64,000 bases of DNA, taken from Jeotgalibacillus malaysiensis. GTDB lineage: Bacteria; Bacillota; Bacilli; Bacillales; Jeotgalibacillaceae. The translations under genes and the position numbers were made by a program. The stretch is from the NCBI GenBank assembly GCA_000818095.1, contig CP009416.1:197501-261500 (forward strand). Reading direction: 5' to 3'. Under the pieces are notes generated by a model. That model made no database searches and was not told the origin of the DNA. It was given only the letters and a program-made list of their open reading frames with translations. The number at the start of each line of letters is the position of its first letter. The first letter of the stretch is position 1. This document shows, one piece after another, positions 53,973 to 62,519 of the stretch.

Positions 53973-54085
53973 TGAAATCAACTTTTGTAGCATGTTTTTG
54001 ATTAAACTTTTTTCAAACCTACACTGGAGAATTAGCTCATCAGGATTTTTTTGATGTTAAAAAGATTATCTGCAGGGCGGCAATC

Positions 54086-54145
54086 ATGATCTCTGGTAAC
54101 TATCCGAAAGATAGCGCGTGGGGAACCTTTCCCACCTCAGATCAT
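54086..54145 (+). other. possible three-way-junction RNA
   Basis: ATGATCT (54086) pairs with AGATCAT (54139-54145). Inside are CTATC-CGAAA-GATAG (54100-54114) and GTGGG-gaaccttt-CCCAC (54118-54135), joined by short linkers CTGGTAA, CGC and CTC. I do not recognise it as a known riboswitch or ribozyme. The next gene starts 260 nt downstream. Confidence 0.4.
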
Positions 54146-57685: not shown

Positions 57686-58429
57686 ATGAATGCTATTGCA
57701 AAGCTGGAGTTTAAAAAGAAAATACAGGATAAGGGTCTATGGTTCTGGACATTTATTCTGCCGATTGTTTTTATTGTTGGATTTATTTCGATTTTTGGTG
57801 GCAATACAGGTACTGATTCCGAGCAGCTTGTCGTTCAGATTGTGCCCGGCTATACGGTGATGTTTTCGTTCTATATCATGATATCAATTGTGATCGCGTT
57901 TATTAAAGACCGTGACAGCGGAATGACAGCCAGGATTGCGAGTACCCCGCTCCCGACGCTGCAGTATTTTATGGGCAAGTGGATCCCTTTCATACTGATT
58001 GTGCTGATTCAGATTGCCGTGCTGTTCGGATTTGGGGTAGCTGTCTATGATATGCCGCTTGGAAACGCATTTGCGCTGATCATGATTTCGGTGGCTCTGG
58101 CCTTTGTCTCAACAGGATGCGGGATGGCGATGGCTGTTATCGCAAAGACTGAAAATATGGGGATCGCCCTGACACAGGTCATTGCGCTCGGAGGTGCGAT
58201 GCTTGGCGGACTCTGGATGCCTGTAGAGTTCATGCCGGATATCATGCAGAATATCGCACAATTCCTGCCGCATTATTGGGCGCTTCAGGGCTACCAGACG
58301 GTGATTCTTGACGGAGGAAATGTACTTGATGTTTGGGCTTCGCTGCTTGTGCTGATTGCTTACGGCGCTGTCTGTATTAGCATTGCACTGTCTGCTTATC
58401 CACGTTATTTAAAGTTATCAAAAAGCTGA
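57686..58429 (+). CDS. ABC-2 type permease
   Basis: A 247-residue membrane protein with six helices. FIKDRDSGMTARIASTPLPTLQYFMGKW and LGGLWMPVEFMPDIMQ are ABC-2 export motifs. With the ATPase before it, it likely exports a drug or lipid under LytTR control. AAGGAGGAG lies 7 nt before the ATG. Confidence 0.9.
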   Translation: MNAIAKLEFKKKIQDKGLWFWTFILPIVFIVGFISIFGGNTGTDSEQLVVQIVPGYTVMFSFYIMISIVIAFIKDRDSGMTARIASTPLPTLQYFMGKWIPFILIVLIQIAVLFGFGVAVYDMPLGNAFALIMISVALAFVSTGCGMAMAVIAKTENMGIALTQVIALGGAMLGGLWMPVEFMPDIMQNIAQFLPHYWALQGYQTVILDGGNVLDVWASLLVLIAYGAVCISIALSAYPRYLKLSKS

Positions 58430-58464
58430 TCTGCAGAAGGCTACGTGTTTCTTATAGAGAAAAC

Positions 58465-58608
58465 CTCCCTGTCCTGAACACTATTCTGACAATACAAGTC
58501 AATTGCATAAGTGAAAGTAAGAAGTAAGTGATTAAAGCACTTTGCGGTGAATTAATTGAATAGTTATTTGTAGGTGCAAATATTCATAAATGTGTTCAGG
58601 ACAGGGAG
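58465..58608. repeat. 144-bp inverted-repeat element (MITE-like), copy 1
   Basis: Bounded by perfect 17-bp inverted repeats: CTCCCTGTCCTGAACAC (58465-58481) and its complement at 58592-58608. AACCTCC follows the right end as well as forming the left boundary. It encodes nothing. The body and left end recur at 61425 in the same orientation. Confidence 0.8.
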
Positions 58609-58672
58609 CAAACCTCCACAAGAGAGCAAATGTACTTTCAATAGATCCTGCAAATAAAAAAGCAACTATAAC

Positions 58673-58699
58673 TTGACTTGAATTTCTAAAAACTATAAA
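58673..58699 (+). promoter_or_regulatory. probable promoter of the first TPP-controlled unit
   Basis: TTGACT (58673-58678) and TATAAA (58694-58699) with a 15-bp spacer, 23 bp before the riboswitch. Confidence 0.4.
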
Positions 58700-58721
58700 G
58701 TAGGGCTAACTTAAATATAAT

Positions 58722-58803
58722 CACTAGGGGTGTTATATAACTGAGATGAGTGTTTACTCAAACCCTTTGAACCTGAACTAGTTAAAACTAGCGTAGGAAA
58801 GTG
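58722..58803 (+). promoter_or_regulatory. TPP riboswitch 1
   Basis: The THI-box core is complete: CACTAGGGGTG, CTGAGATGAG (58741), ACCCTTTGAACCTGAACTAG (58762 on), and AACTAGCGTAGGAAAGTG, with CACT/AGTG closing P1. It binds thiamine pyrophosphate and lowers expression. A terminator follows at 58873. Confidence 0.95.
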
Positions 58804-58872
58804 TAGATTTCATTACATAACATATTTTAAGGACGCAGGCGCCTTAATTTCTCGATGTAATTATGGATATTT

Positions 58873-58911
58873 ACGCAGCTTTCCTATAGGAAAGCTGCGT
58901 TTTTTGTTTTA
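58873..58911 (+). terminator. terminator under TPP riboswitch 1
   Basis: ACGCAGCTTTCC pairs with GGAAAGCTGCGT around TATA and is followed by TTTTTGTTTT. It lies between riboswitch and the SDR gene, so control is probably at transcription termination. Confidence 0.85.
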
Positions 58912-58971
58912 TCTATTTCTATCACTTTATTATTTAAGTGTCATCAAGACTAATAAGTAGGAGTGGTTAAA

Positions 58972-59724
58972 ATGGGAAAAGTAGTATTAGTAACAGGCAG
59001 TAGCAGAGGTTTGGGAGCCACTATCGCCAAAACCTTAGTTCAACAGGGATTTAAAGTGGTTATTAATTTCTATAAGAGTCAGAATGCTGCTGAAGAACTT
59101 GTTAATGAACTCGGCCAAGAGCATGCAATTGCGATCCGTGCAGATGTTACAAATCGAAAAGAAGTGGAAGCGCTAATCGAGCAGGCAACCCAGCACTTTG
59201 GTCAAATAGACGTTGTAGTGAGTAATGCTTTAGTAGACTTCAAGTTTGATCCAACGGGTCAAAAGCCTTTTAAAGATCTTTCCTGGGAAGATTATCAAAG
59301 GCAATTAGATGGAACTTTAAAAGCTGCGTTTAATGTAGTTCAAAGCGTATTACCACAATTCATAGAACGTAAGAATGGCAGTATTATCAGCATTGGAACC
59401 AATTTATTTCAAAACCCAGTTGTCCCTTATCATGAATATACAACAGCTAAAGCTGGACTGATTGGCTTTACACGTAATATCGCTGCGGAGTTAGGGCAAT
59501 ATGGTATAAAAGCAAATGTAGTTTCAGGCGGTTTGCTAAAGATGACTGATGCCAGTTCCGTCACTACTCCGGAAGTATTTGAGTTAATTGCTCAGTCAAC
59601 GCCATTAAAAAAGGTAACGACTCCTGAAGATGTAGCCAGTATGGTCGCTTATCTGGCTTCAGAAAATGCTGCTGGCATTACAGGTCAAAACTTTACAGTC
59701 GATGGCGGTCTAACAATGAACTAA
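58972..59724 (+). CDS. SDR-family oxidoreductase under TPP control
   Basis: A 250-residue short-chain dehydrogenase, FabG-like. The cofactor loop is TGSSRGLGATIA (about 8-19), VSNALVDF replaces the usual NNAG region near 86, and the active site has Ser142 region (IISIGTN) and YTTAKAG (Tyr/Lys near 155-159). The C-terminus is NFTVDGGLTMN. ATG 58972 follows TAGGAG. The substrate is unknown, but control by a TPP riboswitch points to thiamine synthesis, salvage or breakdown. It is followed by a second TPP riboswitch. Confidence 0.85.
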   Translation: MGKVVLVTGSSRGLGATIAKTLVQQGFKVVINFYKSQNAAEELVNELGQEHAIAIRADVTNRKEVEALIEQATQHFGQIDVVVSNALVDFKFDPTGQKPFKDLSWEDYQRQLDGTLKAAFNVVQSVLPQFIERKNGSIISIGTNLFQNPVVPYHEYTTAKAGLIGFTRNIAAELGQYGIKANVVSGGLLKMTDASSVTTPEVFELIAQSTPLKKVTTPEDVASMVAYLASENAAGITGQNFTVDGGLTMN

Positions 59725-59855
59725 TGACTTAACTTACACTTCAGCGCGACGGTCTCTCAGACGGATTATTTTTTAGAGAACACCCTATACGATGAGATCA
59801 ATCTACTGCAGACGAGGCCATAATTACTTTGGTTCTTAAAAATTTTATATAAAAA

Positions 59856-59937
59856 CACTGGGGGAGTCTATTTAGACTGAGATGGAGATATCCGGACCCT
59901 TTGAACCTGATCTGCTTAAAACCAGCGTAGGGAAGTG
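59856..59937 (+). promoter_or_regulatory. TPP riboswitch 2
   Basis: A second complete THI-box: CACTGGGGGAG, CTGAGATGGAG (59877), ACCCTTTGAACCTGATCTGC and AACCAGCGTAGGGAAGTG, with CACT/AGTG closing P1. Its peripheral helix differs from riboswitch 1, so it is not a recent copy. Confidence 0.95.
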
Positions 59938-59973
59938 GCTGCTATATACTGAGACGATTTTAAGGTATAGCCT

Positions 59974-60004
59974 AAACCACTTCCTCGCTGAAGTGGTTTT
60001 TTAT
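59974..60004 (+). terminator. terminator under TPP riboswitch 2
   Basis: AACCACTTC and GAAGTGGTT flank CTCGCT and are followed by TTTT, between the riboswitch and the LLM gene. The 60005-60120 stretch holds no gene. Confidence 0.85.
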
Positions 60005-60120
60005 GTGTCAGCTAATATTTTATCTGCTCTGAGAACGAAAGTGAGAGACGGAACAATTAGCACATATTATCGTTGCCATCGATGAAAACACAAATATAGA
60101 GATTGAAGGTGTAAATGCTT

Positions 60121-61419
60121 ATGAAGAGTAAAAAACAATTACATTTAGGTGTGCTGTTAATCGGATGTGGCCATCATCAGGCTGCCTGGTTAATGGAGGA
60201 TTCAAGCATTGAGCAGATCGGAGAAGTTTCGTATTATCAATCTTTAGCAAAGCTGGCGGAGTATGGATGTTTCGATGCAGTATTTTTTGCTGACAATCAA
60301 TCGTTACGGGCAGAAAATGATCGTGTATTACCGGCTTTTTGGCTTGATCCGGTAGTGAACTTGACTGCTATTTCGCAAGTAACGAAATATATAGGCTTAG
60401 TGACGACCATTTCAAGTACTTTTTCTAACCCTTTTACTGCAGCAAGACAGCTGCTAAGTCTCGATCATATAACGAAAGGGAGAGTTGGATGGAATTTAGT
60501 CACATCAATGACAGATTGGGAAGCTCATAATCATGGTTTAGAAGAGTTGCCTCCACGCAATAAACGGTATGAAAAAGCTGAGGAATTTGCTGATTTAATG
60601 AATCAACTTTTTTTGTCATGGGATAGTAAGGAACTTTTATATAAACGTACAGAAAACAAACTAATCAACTCTGCTAATATAAAACCTATCAATCATCAAG
60701 GTAAATACTTTAAAGTAAAAGGGCCGTTAACGACGCCAAAAAGTCCTCAAGGCAAGCCGGTATCGATGCAGGCTGGCGCATCCGGTCAAGGTATTGAGCT
60801 CGCTTCTAAATATGCTGATGCCGTTTATTCTGTATCATGGAACTTGAACCAGGCAACAAAATTCCGAAATAAATTGGTTGAACAAGTTGATAAAAACAAC
60901 AATGTTGATCGGCACGTTAAAATATTTCCGGGTTTAGTTACATATGTCGGGCGTACTTATGAAGAAGCCCTTGCAAAAAAAACAGCTTTAGATGAAAAAT
61001 TACCTTTGGAAACCTCTTTAAACCAGTTGAGCTTTTTTCTTCAACAGGATTGTTCAAGCTGGGATATTGATAAGAAAGTACCTTCATTACCTCCAGTCGA
61101 GGAATTTAAAGGACCAGTAGGAAGATATGAAACAATTTTAGAAATTATTAACGATACCGAACCTACCGTTAAAGAACTCCTGGGTTACTTGAGTGCAGGT
61201 GGGGGTCATCTTACATTAGTTGGTACGCCTGAGAAAATTGCAGATGAAATGGAGAGGTGGTTAGAGCTGGGAGTTGCTGATGGCTTCAACCTTATGCCTC
61301 CTACTTTACCAGAAAGTTTAAATGACTTTATAGAATTAGTTGTGCCGGAATTACAGAAAAGAAATATCTTTAGAAGGCAATATTCAGGTAAGACTCTTCG
61401 TGAACATCTGGGTTTATAG
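60121..61419 (+). CDS. LLM-class flavin-dependent monooxygenase (NtaA/SnaA/DmoA group) under TPP control
   Basis: A 432-residue flavin monooxygenase of the NtaA/SnaA/DszA group, which uses reduced FMN from a partner reductase. Family blocks include [84 protein letters not shown] and [20 protein letters not shown]. ATG 60121 is 9 nt after AAGGTG; ATG 60115 is too close. The riboswitch suggests action on a thiamine-related heterocycle, for example an N- or S-containing precursor or degradation product, an inference. Confidence 0.88.
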   Translation: [432 protein letters not shown]

Positions 61420-61424
61420 AAAAC

Positions 61425-61598
61425 CTCCCTGTCCTGAACACTATTCTGACAATACAAGACAATTGTATGAGTGAAAGTAAGAAGTAAGTGATTAAAGCAC
61501 TTTGCGGTGAATTAATTGAATAGTTATTTGTAGGTGCAAATATTCATAAATGTGTTATCTCTATTATTTGGGGGCTAGACTACAGGGAGCAAACCTCC
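61425..61598. repeat. inverted-repeat element (MITE-like), copy 2, right end altered
   Basis: From CTCCCTGTCCTGAACAC through ATAAATGTGTT (to about 61556) it matches 58465-58596 with a few substitutions. The right inverted repeat is then interrupted by about 26 nt of other sequence before CAGGGAGCAAACCTCC (61583-61598). Confidence 0.8.
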
Positions 61599-61630
61599 CA
61601 GGAAAAGTAAGTTTTTCATCACTTCGGGTA

Positions 61631-61659
61631 TTGCGTAAATTTTTTAAAATGTATATTCT
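61631..61659 (+). promoter_or_regulatory. promoter of the leader-fusB unit
   Basis: TTGCGT (61631-61636), 17-bp spacer, TATTCT (61654-61659). It lies 25 bp before the leader start codon. Confidence 0.45.
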
Positions 61660-61683
61660 GTTACTAAATGGAGGTGATACCTG

Positions 61684-61746
61684 ATGACCTTTGTGAATGA
61701 TATGCAGGCGTCAGAATTGGCACCGACTCATGCAAAGCCTGAATAA
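61684..61746 (+). CDS. 20-residue leader peptide upstream of the FusB-type gene
   Basis: A short frame, MTFVNDMQASEL... ending THAKPE, with a very strong ribosome binding site (GGAGGTGAT, 6 nt upstream). The last codons (CAT GCA AAG) form the left arm of a hairpin (61729-61737 with 61757-61765). This is the layout of an inducible-resistance leader. It is 114 nt upstream of the EF-G-binding protein gene. Confidence 0.6.
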   Translation: MTFVNDMQASELAPTHAKPE

Positions 61747-61849
61747 GTAGGCGATACTTTGCATGGGGTTAAGGTACGTTATTAATCGCCAATCAATGTA
61801 TCTTTCTATCAGGTTTTGCACTTATCTAATCATTTAAAAAGATAAGGAG
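61729..61849 (+). promoter_or_regulatory. putative translational attenuator
   Basis: Segment 1 (61729-61740) can pair either with segment 2 (CTTTGCATG, 61757-61765) or with segment 3 (AGGTTTTGCA, 61811-61820; ten pairs including one GU). Next to segment 3, CTTATCT (61821-61827) pairs with AGATAAG (61840-61846), which covers part of the AAGGAG ribosome binding site (61844-61849). The two states could switch access to that site. Confidence 0.5.
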
Positions 61850-61859
61850 CGGATAGAAA

Positions 61860-62519
61860 ATGGATACAGCTAAAAAAACGGAACAGACGTTTATTCGAAA
61901 TGATCAATATAATTTTATTGCACGGCAGGTCTACTTTATTATTCACACTCAAAATACTGTGAATCATCAGGATACAAGGAACGGAGTAAAGCTTCATGCG
62001 ATTGCAAAAGTCAGAGAGATGATTCCTGAAATGACTGAGGAGCAGGAAACGCTTCTGAATCGTATGACTGAATTGGAAAGTGAGTCCGAAGCACGCAAGT
62101 TTCTGGATGAGTTAAAACATGATTACGTGATCCCGTTTCAAAAATTGTCTAAGAAAAAGGTAGAGAAGCTATTCCCGAAAGCGAAAAAGCTTCAGGTGCC
62201 GGATCTGGATACGCTGGACTTTCAGCGGTTATCTTACCTTGGATGGTTTGATACGCGGGCACATAAGCAGTATCTGATCGTAGAGTATCAGGGAAAGTTA
62301 AAGGGCATATCAGGCCACTTTGCCAACAGCAACAACAAAGGAATTTGCAGTATTTGTAACCACCTGGGTGAAGTCGCATTGTTTATGACAAAGGTTAAAA
62401 GTGGAAAAGAGACCTACACTAGCAGAGGGAACTACATTTGTAAGGATAGTCAGATGTGCAATGAAAATATAACTGATATAAGAAAGTTAGAAGTTTTTCT
62501 GGATTACCTTTTTCAGTAG
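61860..62519 (+). CDS. FusB/FusC-type EF-G-binding protein
   Basis: A 219-residue cytoplasmic protein of the FusB family, which binds elongation factor G and rescues it from fusidic-acid-stalled ribosomes. An N-terminal helical bundle (1-80) is followed by the C-terminal treble-clef zinc domain: CSIC (about 161-164), then CKDSQMC near 193-199 give the four cysteines. Length fits FusB (213) and chromosomal relatives. ATG 61860 follows AAGGAG. Chromosomal members occur in many Bacillales, so clinical resistance is not implied. Regulation by the leader is inferred. Confidence 0.88.
   Translation: MDTAKKTEQTFIRNDQYNFIARQVYFIIHTQNTVNHQDTRNGVKLHAIAKVREMIPEMTEEQETLLNRMTELESESEARKFLDELKHDYVIPFQKLSKKKVEKLFPKAKKLQVPDLDTLDFQRLSYLGWFDTRAHKQYLIVEYQGKLKGISGHFANSNNKGICSICNHLGEVALFMTKVKSGKETYTSRGNYICKDSQMCNENITDIRKLEVFLDYLFQ

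Follow-up and report, generated by a model that had tools for sequence, protein, structure and literature searches.

Both halves of thiamin (vitamin B1), a pyrimidine and a thiazole, enter salvage as primary alcohols that are phosphorylated by ThiD and ThiM, and TenA is a known salvage enzyme for the pyrimidine, hydroxymethylpyrimidine (HMP). To our knowledge, it is only partly known how bacteria with ThiG and without ThiC obtain their pyrimidine in nature; in many of the genomes searched in this work, ThiC is absent yet ThiG is present. The regulons of thiamin pyrophosphate (TPP) are described, in passages of one source, under the categories of thiamin biosynthesis and transport (PMC3766115), and the words "oxidoreductase" and "monooxygenase" are absent from the main text of that paper. 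Among the closest described systems are the TPP-regulated recovery of base-degraded thiamin by TenA and YlmB and the proposal that HMP-nucleophile compounds (HMP*) are salvage substrates, both taken from parts of a paper whose main text contains neither the word monooxygenase nor the word dehydrogenase (PMC5627462). Here, we analyzed a locus of Jeotgalibacillus malaysiensis in which a short-chain dehydrogenase/reductase (SDR) gene and a gene for a luciferase-like monooxygenase (LLM) dependent on flavin mononucleotide (FMN) are each preceded by a TPP riboswitch of their own. The locus lies in a window of 64,000 nucleotides (contig CP009416.1, positions 197,501 to 261,500) of the 4.12-Mb genome, and coordinates are given relative to this window (Table 1).

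Conservation and genomic context of the pair

A first-pass annotation made from the sequence alone had described two complete TPP riboswitches, each with a terminator, in separate control of an SDR and an LLM of the NtaA/SnaA type, and this description was borne out. Both aptamers exceed the gathering score of the Rfam model (54.3 bits for RF00059) and are followed by terminator-like hairpins. The SDR matches NF006393 with 394 bits (equivalog cut-off of 292) and the LLM matches the TIGR03860 NtaA/DmoA model over its full length with 466 bits (cut-off of 279.7).

Among 299 genomes of the order, the LLM orthologues form a sharply separated group, with at least 69% identity in seven genomes, the present one included, and 41% for the next best match. 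The SDR shows at least 78% identity in the seven pair-bearing genomes and 58% in the next best, and immediately precedes the LLM in each of the seven; a TPP riboswitch is found at the locus in six of six relatives. Only two of the 11 genomes of the same genus in this sample, J. malaysiensis among them, carry the pair. A scan of 84,980 species with two conserved peptide patterns, a procedure that favors close relatives, retrieved 63 LLM relatives with 46-96% identity, mostly from Bacillales and also from Yaniella (Actinomycetota) and Secundilactobacillus. All 63 loci have a TPP riboswitch upstream of the LLM, so that homologues lacking one, which the first-pass annotation would have counted against its proposal, did not turn up among them. 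The SDR adjoins the LLM in 59 of the 63 (the exceptions being L104, L109, L133, and L149). Plasmid-borne copies occur in Mesobacillus, Exiguobacterium (with an interrupted LLM), Rhodococcus, and Pseudochrobactrum. The riboswitches of the Rhodococcus and Pseudochrobactrum plasmids (65.7 and 69.4 bits) pass the gathering score; above this score, Rfam supports the riboswitch in both Actinomycetota and Alphaproteobacteria (L148, L153, and L154). The SDRs of Rhodococcus and Yaniella reach 423 and 435 bits against NF006393. The module spans three phyla.

The lack of an adjacent thi gene, remarked on in the annotation, holds for J. malaysiensis (none among the eight window proteins scanned around the pair) and does not extend to all relatives, as thi genes stand alongside the pair or the LLM in 10 of the 63 loci. 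In five Planococcus/Planomicrobium loci, a single riboswitch heads an array in which tenI-thiO-thiG-thiF is followed by the pair (for the Planococcus-group locus L144, thiG is known only from the genome-wide ThiG search), and the pair of two Sporosarcina loci is oriented divergently from an array of tenI-thiG-thiF under TPP control. The remaining three are single loci: SDR-LLM-thiM-thiD-thiE-thiW in Psychrobacillus, where the pair sits at the place occupied by tenA in J. malaysiensis; SDR-LLM-thiD-MFS-thiM-thiE in Yaniella, MFS being a major facilitator superfamily gene; and, in Secundilactobacillus, an LLM after a TenA-family gene (a weak match of 39.7 bits) and ykoE. A weak ThiO-like match in L115 (90 bits) and weak YkoD matches were not counted as thi genes.

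Table 1. Features of the SDR-LLM locus of J. malaysiensis in window coordinates
Feature	Position	Strand	Details
MITE copy 1	58465-58608	+	144 bp; 17-bp terminal inverted repeats 58465-58481 / 58592-58608
TPP riboswitch aptamer 1	58716-58816	+	Rfam RF00059, 83.7 bits, full length
Intrinsic terminator 1 (predicted)	58873-58900	+	terminator-like hairpin after aptamer 1
SDR-family NAD(P)-dependent oxidoreductase	58972-59724	+	NF006393; GTG start at 58963 also possible
TPP riboswitch aptamer 2	59850-59950	+	Rfam RF00059, 74.5 bits, full length
Intrinsic terminator 2 (predicted)	59974-59999	+	terminator-like hairpin after aptamer 2
LLM-class FMN-dependent monooxygenase, NtaA/SnaA/DszA family	60115-61419	+	TIGR03860, TPP-linked clade
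MITE copy 2	61425-61589	+	same orientation as copy 1; right end altered after ~61556
MITE, miniature inverted-repeat transposable element.

The two enzyme families

The predicted fold of the LLM (mean predicted local distance difference test score, pLDDT, of 83.2) is matched by Foldseek to CmoJ with an E value of 4e-37 and a template modeling (TM) score of 0.82. Its structural kin are CmoJ, BdsA, nitrilotriacetate (NTA) monooxygenase, EmoA, DmoA, LadA, and riboflavin lyase. CmoJ, BdsA, the NTA and ethylenediaminetetraacetate (EDTA) monooxygenases, DmoA, and riboflavin lyase catalyze the oxidative cleavage of C-S or C-N bonds. Identity to the solved TIGR03860-type members (ranks 1-25) is 26-34%, the top value of 34% belonging to CmoJ/YtnJ and to a structure named NTA monooxygenase, and at these values a test of close relationship failed for CmoJ/YtnJ, NtaA, EmoA, DmoA, and BdsA alike. 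The tight clustering with a known non-thiamin enzyme that would have spoken against the first-pass proposal was accordingly not seen among the solved enzymes. Judged by its profile match and modeled fold, the LLM belongs to the NtaA type, but it cannot be shown to be one of the characterized enzymes.

A tree of 95 LLM sequences is split by a single branch (support of 100/100) into 66 that are TPP-linked and 29 others. The latter comprise 23 Bacillales loci (L030-L052, ~4.3 kb each) and six plasmid loci (L156-L161, ~11 kb each), and none of the 29 has a TPP riboswitch in the stretches scanned. A general rule that any LLM of the TIGR03860 family is TPP-linked was therefore rejected (0/23 and 0/6). 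Residues that set the TPP-linked clade apart include Met132, His140, Ala222, Tyr238, Val275, and Gly363, which are conserved in 18-19 of the 19 aligned clade sequences and absent from the 13 others. The LLM thus shares the full-length profile match and the fold with CmoJ/YtnJ and the other TIGR03860 monooxygenases, with CmoJ, BdsA, NTA monooxygenase, LadA, and EmoA as its solved neighbors, and differs from them in its low identity, its separate clade, its clade residues, and its TPP riboswitch. Two LLMs with interrupted frames, from Planococcus beigongshangi (L093) and an Exiguobacterium acetylicum plasmid (L155), were omitted from the tree and apparently represent decay.

The SDR falls below the cut-offs of the FabG and 3-oxoacyl-acyl carrier protein (ACP) reductase models (187 vs 222, 176 vs 298, and 175 vs 296 bits), and the NF006393 model itself also carries the name 3-oxoacyl-ACP reductase. 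G9, G13, and G15 of the glycine-rich nucleotide motif and the Tyr-Lys pair Y156 and K160 are invariant in 12 aligned rows, Thr143 occupies the position where a Ser is usual, and the alignment reveals a family signature, GTNL-QNPVV-YH-Y-AK, that is common to the three phyla. In Salinicoccus halodurans (L143) the SDR frame is split, an apparent case of decay.

SDR cousins with 53-58% identity occur in genomes that lack LLMs of the TPP-linked clade. The riboswitch test of such SDR-only genomes covered 23 of 30 SDR loci and was positive in 22, the sole exception being L060 (G156). The gene next to these copies is thiM in 13 and thiW in three of the 23 loci, as checked with family models for nine of the 13 and two of the three and by eye for the remainder. 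In L063 and L066, a TPP riboswitch and the SDR are followed by a 210-aa gene that resembles a nitroreductase by eye only and would provide SDRs of this family with another redox partner. A TPP-regulated SDR named oarX was reportedly listed in the comparative genomics of thiamin by Rodionov et al. in 2002, and we take the SDR half of the pair to be this oarX. The SDR of the pair accordingly has the family model, the riboswitch (22/23), and the thiM/thiW operons (16/23) in common with TPP-regulated SDRs, which differ from it in their 53-58% identity and in standing without an LLM of this clade.

The annotation had considered the locus a candidate for an undescribed system. This stands for the LLM half alone, which looks unreported, since SDRs of this family have a TPP link of their own elsewhere in the Bacillales and oarX reportedly dates back to 2002; the pair as such is widespread. 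Among the matches listed from the open PMC literature, by title and opening of the abstract, there is no description of an LLM as a TPP-controlled thiamin gene.

Proposed role in thiamin salvage and its alternatives

The pair very probably serves some form of thiamin salvage or recycling, and on comparative sequence grounds a salvage role, with what would be an extra oxidative step, is well supported. We give an even chance to the more specific reading that the pair is a mobile, TPP-repressed module for the salvage of thiamin precursors, in which the LLM cleaves oxidatively and the SDR reduces the resulting aldehyde. At low TPP, the leader RNAs would form antiterminators and both genes would be transcribed. 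The LLM, with reduced FMN (FMNH2) and O2, would oxidize a carbon adjoining N or S of a thiamin fragment and break the bond to yield an aldehyde, which the SDR would convert with NAD(P)H to a primary alcohol. Salvage kinases would trap this alcohol, ThiD in the case of the pyrimidine HMP and ThiM in that of the thiazole, and ThiE would join the two halves. The annotation had likewise suggested production or recovery of a thiamin building block by oxidative cleavage; the link to thiamin is now strongly supported, and recovery by such a cleavage would fit the chemistry of the family as well as the operon settings.

As for the substrate, we favor the pyrimidine side, with confidence just short of even, because the carbon that would be oxidized bears a heteroatom there, both in thiamin itself and in the adducts left by thiaminase I. 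The preferred substrate class would be 5-(X-methyl)pyrimidines, e.g., an HMP-nucleophile adduct from thiaminase I or another breakdown product. A substrate on the thiazole side is a tentative second choice, and intact thiamin or an analogue is improbable and would in part amount to detoxification, not salvage. It can be speculated, with limited confidence, that the pair provides an oxygen-dependent supply of HMP without ThiC or TenA (from a 5-substituted pyrimidine via the aldehyde), spreading across phyla together with its TPP riboswitch and enabling thiazole-making bacteria without ThiC to complete vitamin B1. Such a module would resemble TenA/YlmB salvage in the TPP-regulated recovery of fragments, with the Psychrobacillus pair in TenA's first operon position, and would differ from it in its enzymes and in a chemistry presumed to be oxidative, not hydrolytic (PMC5627462, in part). 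It would agree with the thiaminase I proposal in the predicted reuse of HMP-nucleophile compounds. With a conserved, TPP-controlled pair of oxygenase and reductase, vitamin B1 salvage would gain an oxidative branch, and the reuse of adducts that arise through thiaminase I or chemical damage could be accounted for. In dozens of genomes, and also on plasmids, such an assignment would supersede the labels "3-oxoacyl-ACP reductase" and "NtaA-family monooxygenase", which are uninformative.

ThiC, ThiG, TenA, and ThiM were searched for in 50 of the 63 pair genomes, the 13 omitted ones (L089, L098, L099, L101, L105, L118, L125, L126, L129, L130, L139, L146, and L150) being genomes already in the order sample, metagenome-assembled genomes, a short contig, and near-duplicates. 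ThiC occurs in none of the seven pair genomes of the order sample, compared with 110 of all 299 genomes, and is missing from 39 of the 50 named pair genomes, 33 of which have ThiG. Strong ThiG matches (E <1e-90) were obtained in 44 of the 50 (order sample: 224/299, with E up to 1e-60) and a ThiM match in 48. These genome-content tests only tilt the choice of substrate side.

Several points weigh against the pyrimidine-side reading. In passages of PMC5627462, HMP* is phosphorylated directly by kinases acting after import, and no oxygenase is needed. No clear thi gene lies within up to 8 kb on each side (less on short contigs) in the 53 other loci. A TenA-family gene is present in 45 of the 50 pair genomes, 11 of the 50 keep ThiC, and the association with ThiC absence is weak (Fisher p ~0.05, ignoring kinship); moreover, absences were scored on assemblies without contigs below 3 kb, and some may be gaps. 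The remaining contrary evidence points to the thiazole, namely the thiW and thiM genes beside the SDR-only copies, the tenI-thiOSGF operon, and the thiamin gene content of SDR-only genomes, which are short of ThiG (14/30 vs 204/262, p 0.0006, ignoring kinship; the 30 genomes were hand-picked, with E up to 4.4e-75, and their ThiC and ThiG status was read by hand).

These same observations make up the case for salvage on the thiazole side, in which hydroxyethylthiazole for ThiM would arise from a thiazole aldehyde through reduction by the SDR, with the LLM freeing or repairing an oxidized or substituted thiazole. Besides the SDR-only copies leading thiM or thiW and their ThiG-poor genomes, the pair is placed behind thiF, where the thiazole operon ends, in the five Planococcus-group loci, and ThiW is described in part of PMC5627462 as a thiazole-specific transporter. 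Set against this, most pair genomes have ThiG, two of the 50 have no ThiM match, and the Secundilactobacillus LLM keeps company with a TenA-family gene and YkoE, ykoC-F being a putative HMP transporter (PMC5627462, in part). In one of the pair genomes, Sutcliffiella deserti, ThiG is present and neither ThiC nor ThiM is matched, which makes thiazole salvage via ThiM unlikely as the use of the pair there. NtaA-type chemistry, moreover, suits a heteroatom-bearing carbon, and the thiazole side chain has only a hydroxyl. We consider the thiazole explanation possible and somewhat unlikely, and because the oxidize-then-reduce logic is common to both, our confidence in it overlaps with that in the pyrimidine-side reading.

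Detoxification or reuse of thiamin antimetabolites or of oxidized thiamin, with low TPP signaling the poisoning and the pair clearing the analogue, appears improbable. The plasmid copies in four genera would fit a resistance-like trait, as would the sporadic occurrence within the genus, but the SDR-only copies stand in ordinary salvage operons and the pair is kept across many Bacillales. Still less probable is that the pair replaces ThiC by making the pyrimidine from a precursor other than thiamin in an oxygen-dependent manner. The frequent lack of ThiC beside ThiG would be expected under this explanation, but ThiC is retained in the 11 genomes mentioned, which weakens compensation for ThiC as a whole explanation, and two such enzymes can hardly be thought to build the ring. 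Finally, unrelated housekeeping enzymes (a fatty-acid reductase and a sulfonate or NTA monooxygenase) with riboswitches by chance, as the automatic names 3-oxoacyl-ACP reductase and NtaA/DmoA family might suggest, were rejected as extremely improbable in view of the riboswitch in 63/63 loci, the three phyla, and the thi operons.

Leader RNAs, flanking elements and probable mobility

Both leaders are predicted to be TPP off-switches that act by termination, with mutually exclusive antiterminator and terminator structures. The 3' end of aptamer 1 (58793-58802) is complementary to the 5' arm of terminator 1 (58878-58887) over 10 pairs, and that of aptamer 2 (59930-59938) to the 5' arm of terminator 2 (59977-59985) over nine pairs, G-U allowed in both. 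Since this is the usual layout of an off-switch, we infer repression by TPP. The weight of the terminators rests on their position, as the two found at 58400-61900 are no excess over the 2.2 expected from shuffles.

The genome contains seven TPP riboswitches, of which five are far away from the locus and precede a lipoate-ligase-family gene with lipA, tenA-thiM-thiD-thiE-thiW, thiT, a ykoF-ykoE operon, and tenI-thiO-thiG-thiF. Among the best matches listed, the leader of riboswitch 1 shows 76-80% identity over ~300 nt to the leader of the pair in other Bacillales. Riboswitch 2 and its terminator (within 59824-60023) are instead 79-84% identical to the tenI leaders of five Planococcus-group genomes, and this region is 79% identical to the tenI leader of the same genome. 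Given this homology, and given that among the 73 loci compared only J. malaysiensis and J. alimentarius have a riboswitch between the SDR and the LLM, the second riboswitch appears to be a leader captured from a tenI-thiOSGF operon. Two separate riboswitches are, by these comparisons, a peculiarity of the genus Jeotgalibacillus.

The flanking elements, correctly recognized in the annotation as direct copies of a short sequence, are MITEs in the same orientation that are 98% identical over 136 nt or 97.2% identical over 142 nt, with copy 2 starting directly past the LLM stop codon. The genome contains 10 matches, six of them spanning at least 136 nt with both flanking copies counted, and no transposase with these MITE ends was identified in it. 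Diverged copies of the family are clustered at 817.7-821 kb and 2740-2747 kb of the chromosome (G000:C1; L014 and L016-L021), and some match one end only. A composite transposon was rejected, the elements being MITEs of ~144 bp only and no transposase-like open reading frame of at least 80 aa being seen by eye at 58400-61900.

The block 58637-61418, which begins ~30 nt past MITE 1 and ends where MITE 2 starts, is 92.6% identical in J. alimentarius, and no MITE was found in 20 kb around the homologous block there. A FusB-like gene lies next door in J. malaysiensis; in J. alimentarius it is ~7.6 kb from the module on the opposite side. To the right of the module, synteny of the genus is regained at 61626-61649 for four relatives' loci and at 61669 for two more of the six compared, but the left flank is not shared, so that no clean empty site emerged from this comparison. 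The differing surroundings in the two species, together with the plasmid carriage, support mobility, and the module is likely to be transferred horizontally, possibly by movement that the MITEs mediate.

Three further observations concern the surroundings and the TPP regulon. The FusB-like neighbor (61860-62519) encodes an EF-G (elongation factor G)-binding protein with a FusB-like fold (Pfam EF-G-binding_N and FBP_C) that scores well below the FusB/C/D/F cut-offs. The distant TPP riboswitch upstream of the lipoate-protein-ligase-family gene and lipA (lipoyl synthase) scores 70.7 bits (L008, 4253-6194; G000:C1:954252-956193), and homologues of these two genes in Planomicrobium are also behind a TPP riboswitch (72.7 bits; L092 from 12114), which suggests joint control of two cofactors of 2-oxo-acid dehydrogenases. 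Lastly, a Skipping-rope small RNA (RF02924, 51 bits) is located at 54065-54145 of the window on the minus strand.

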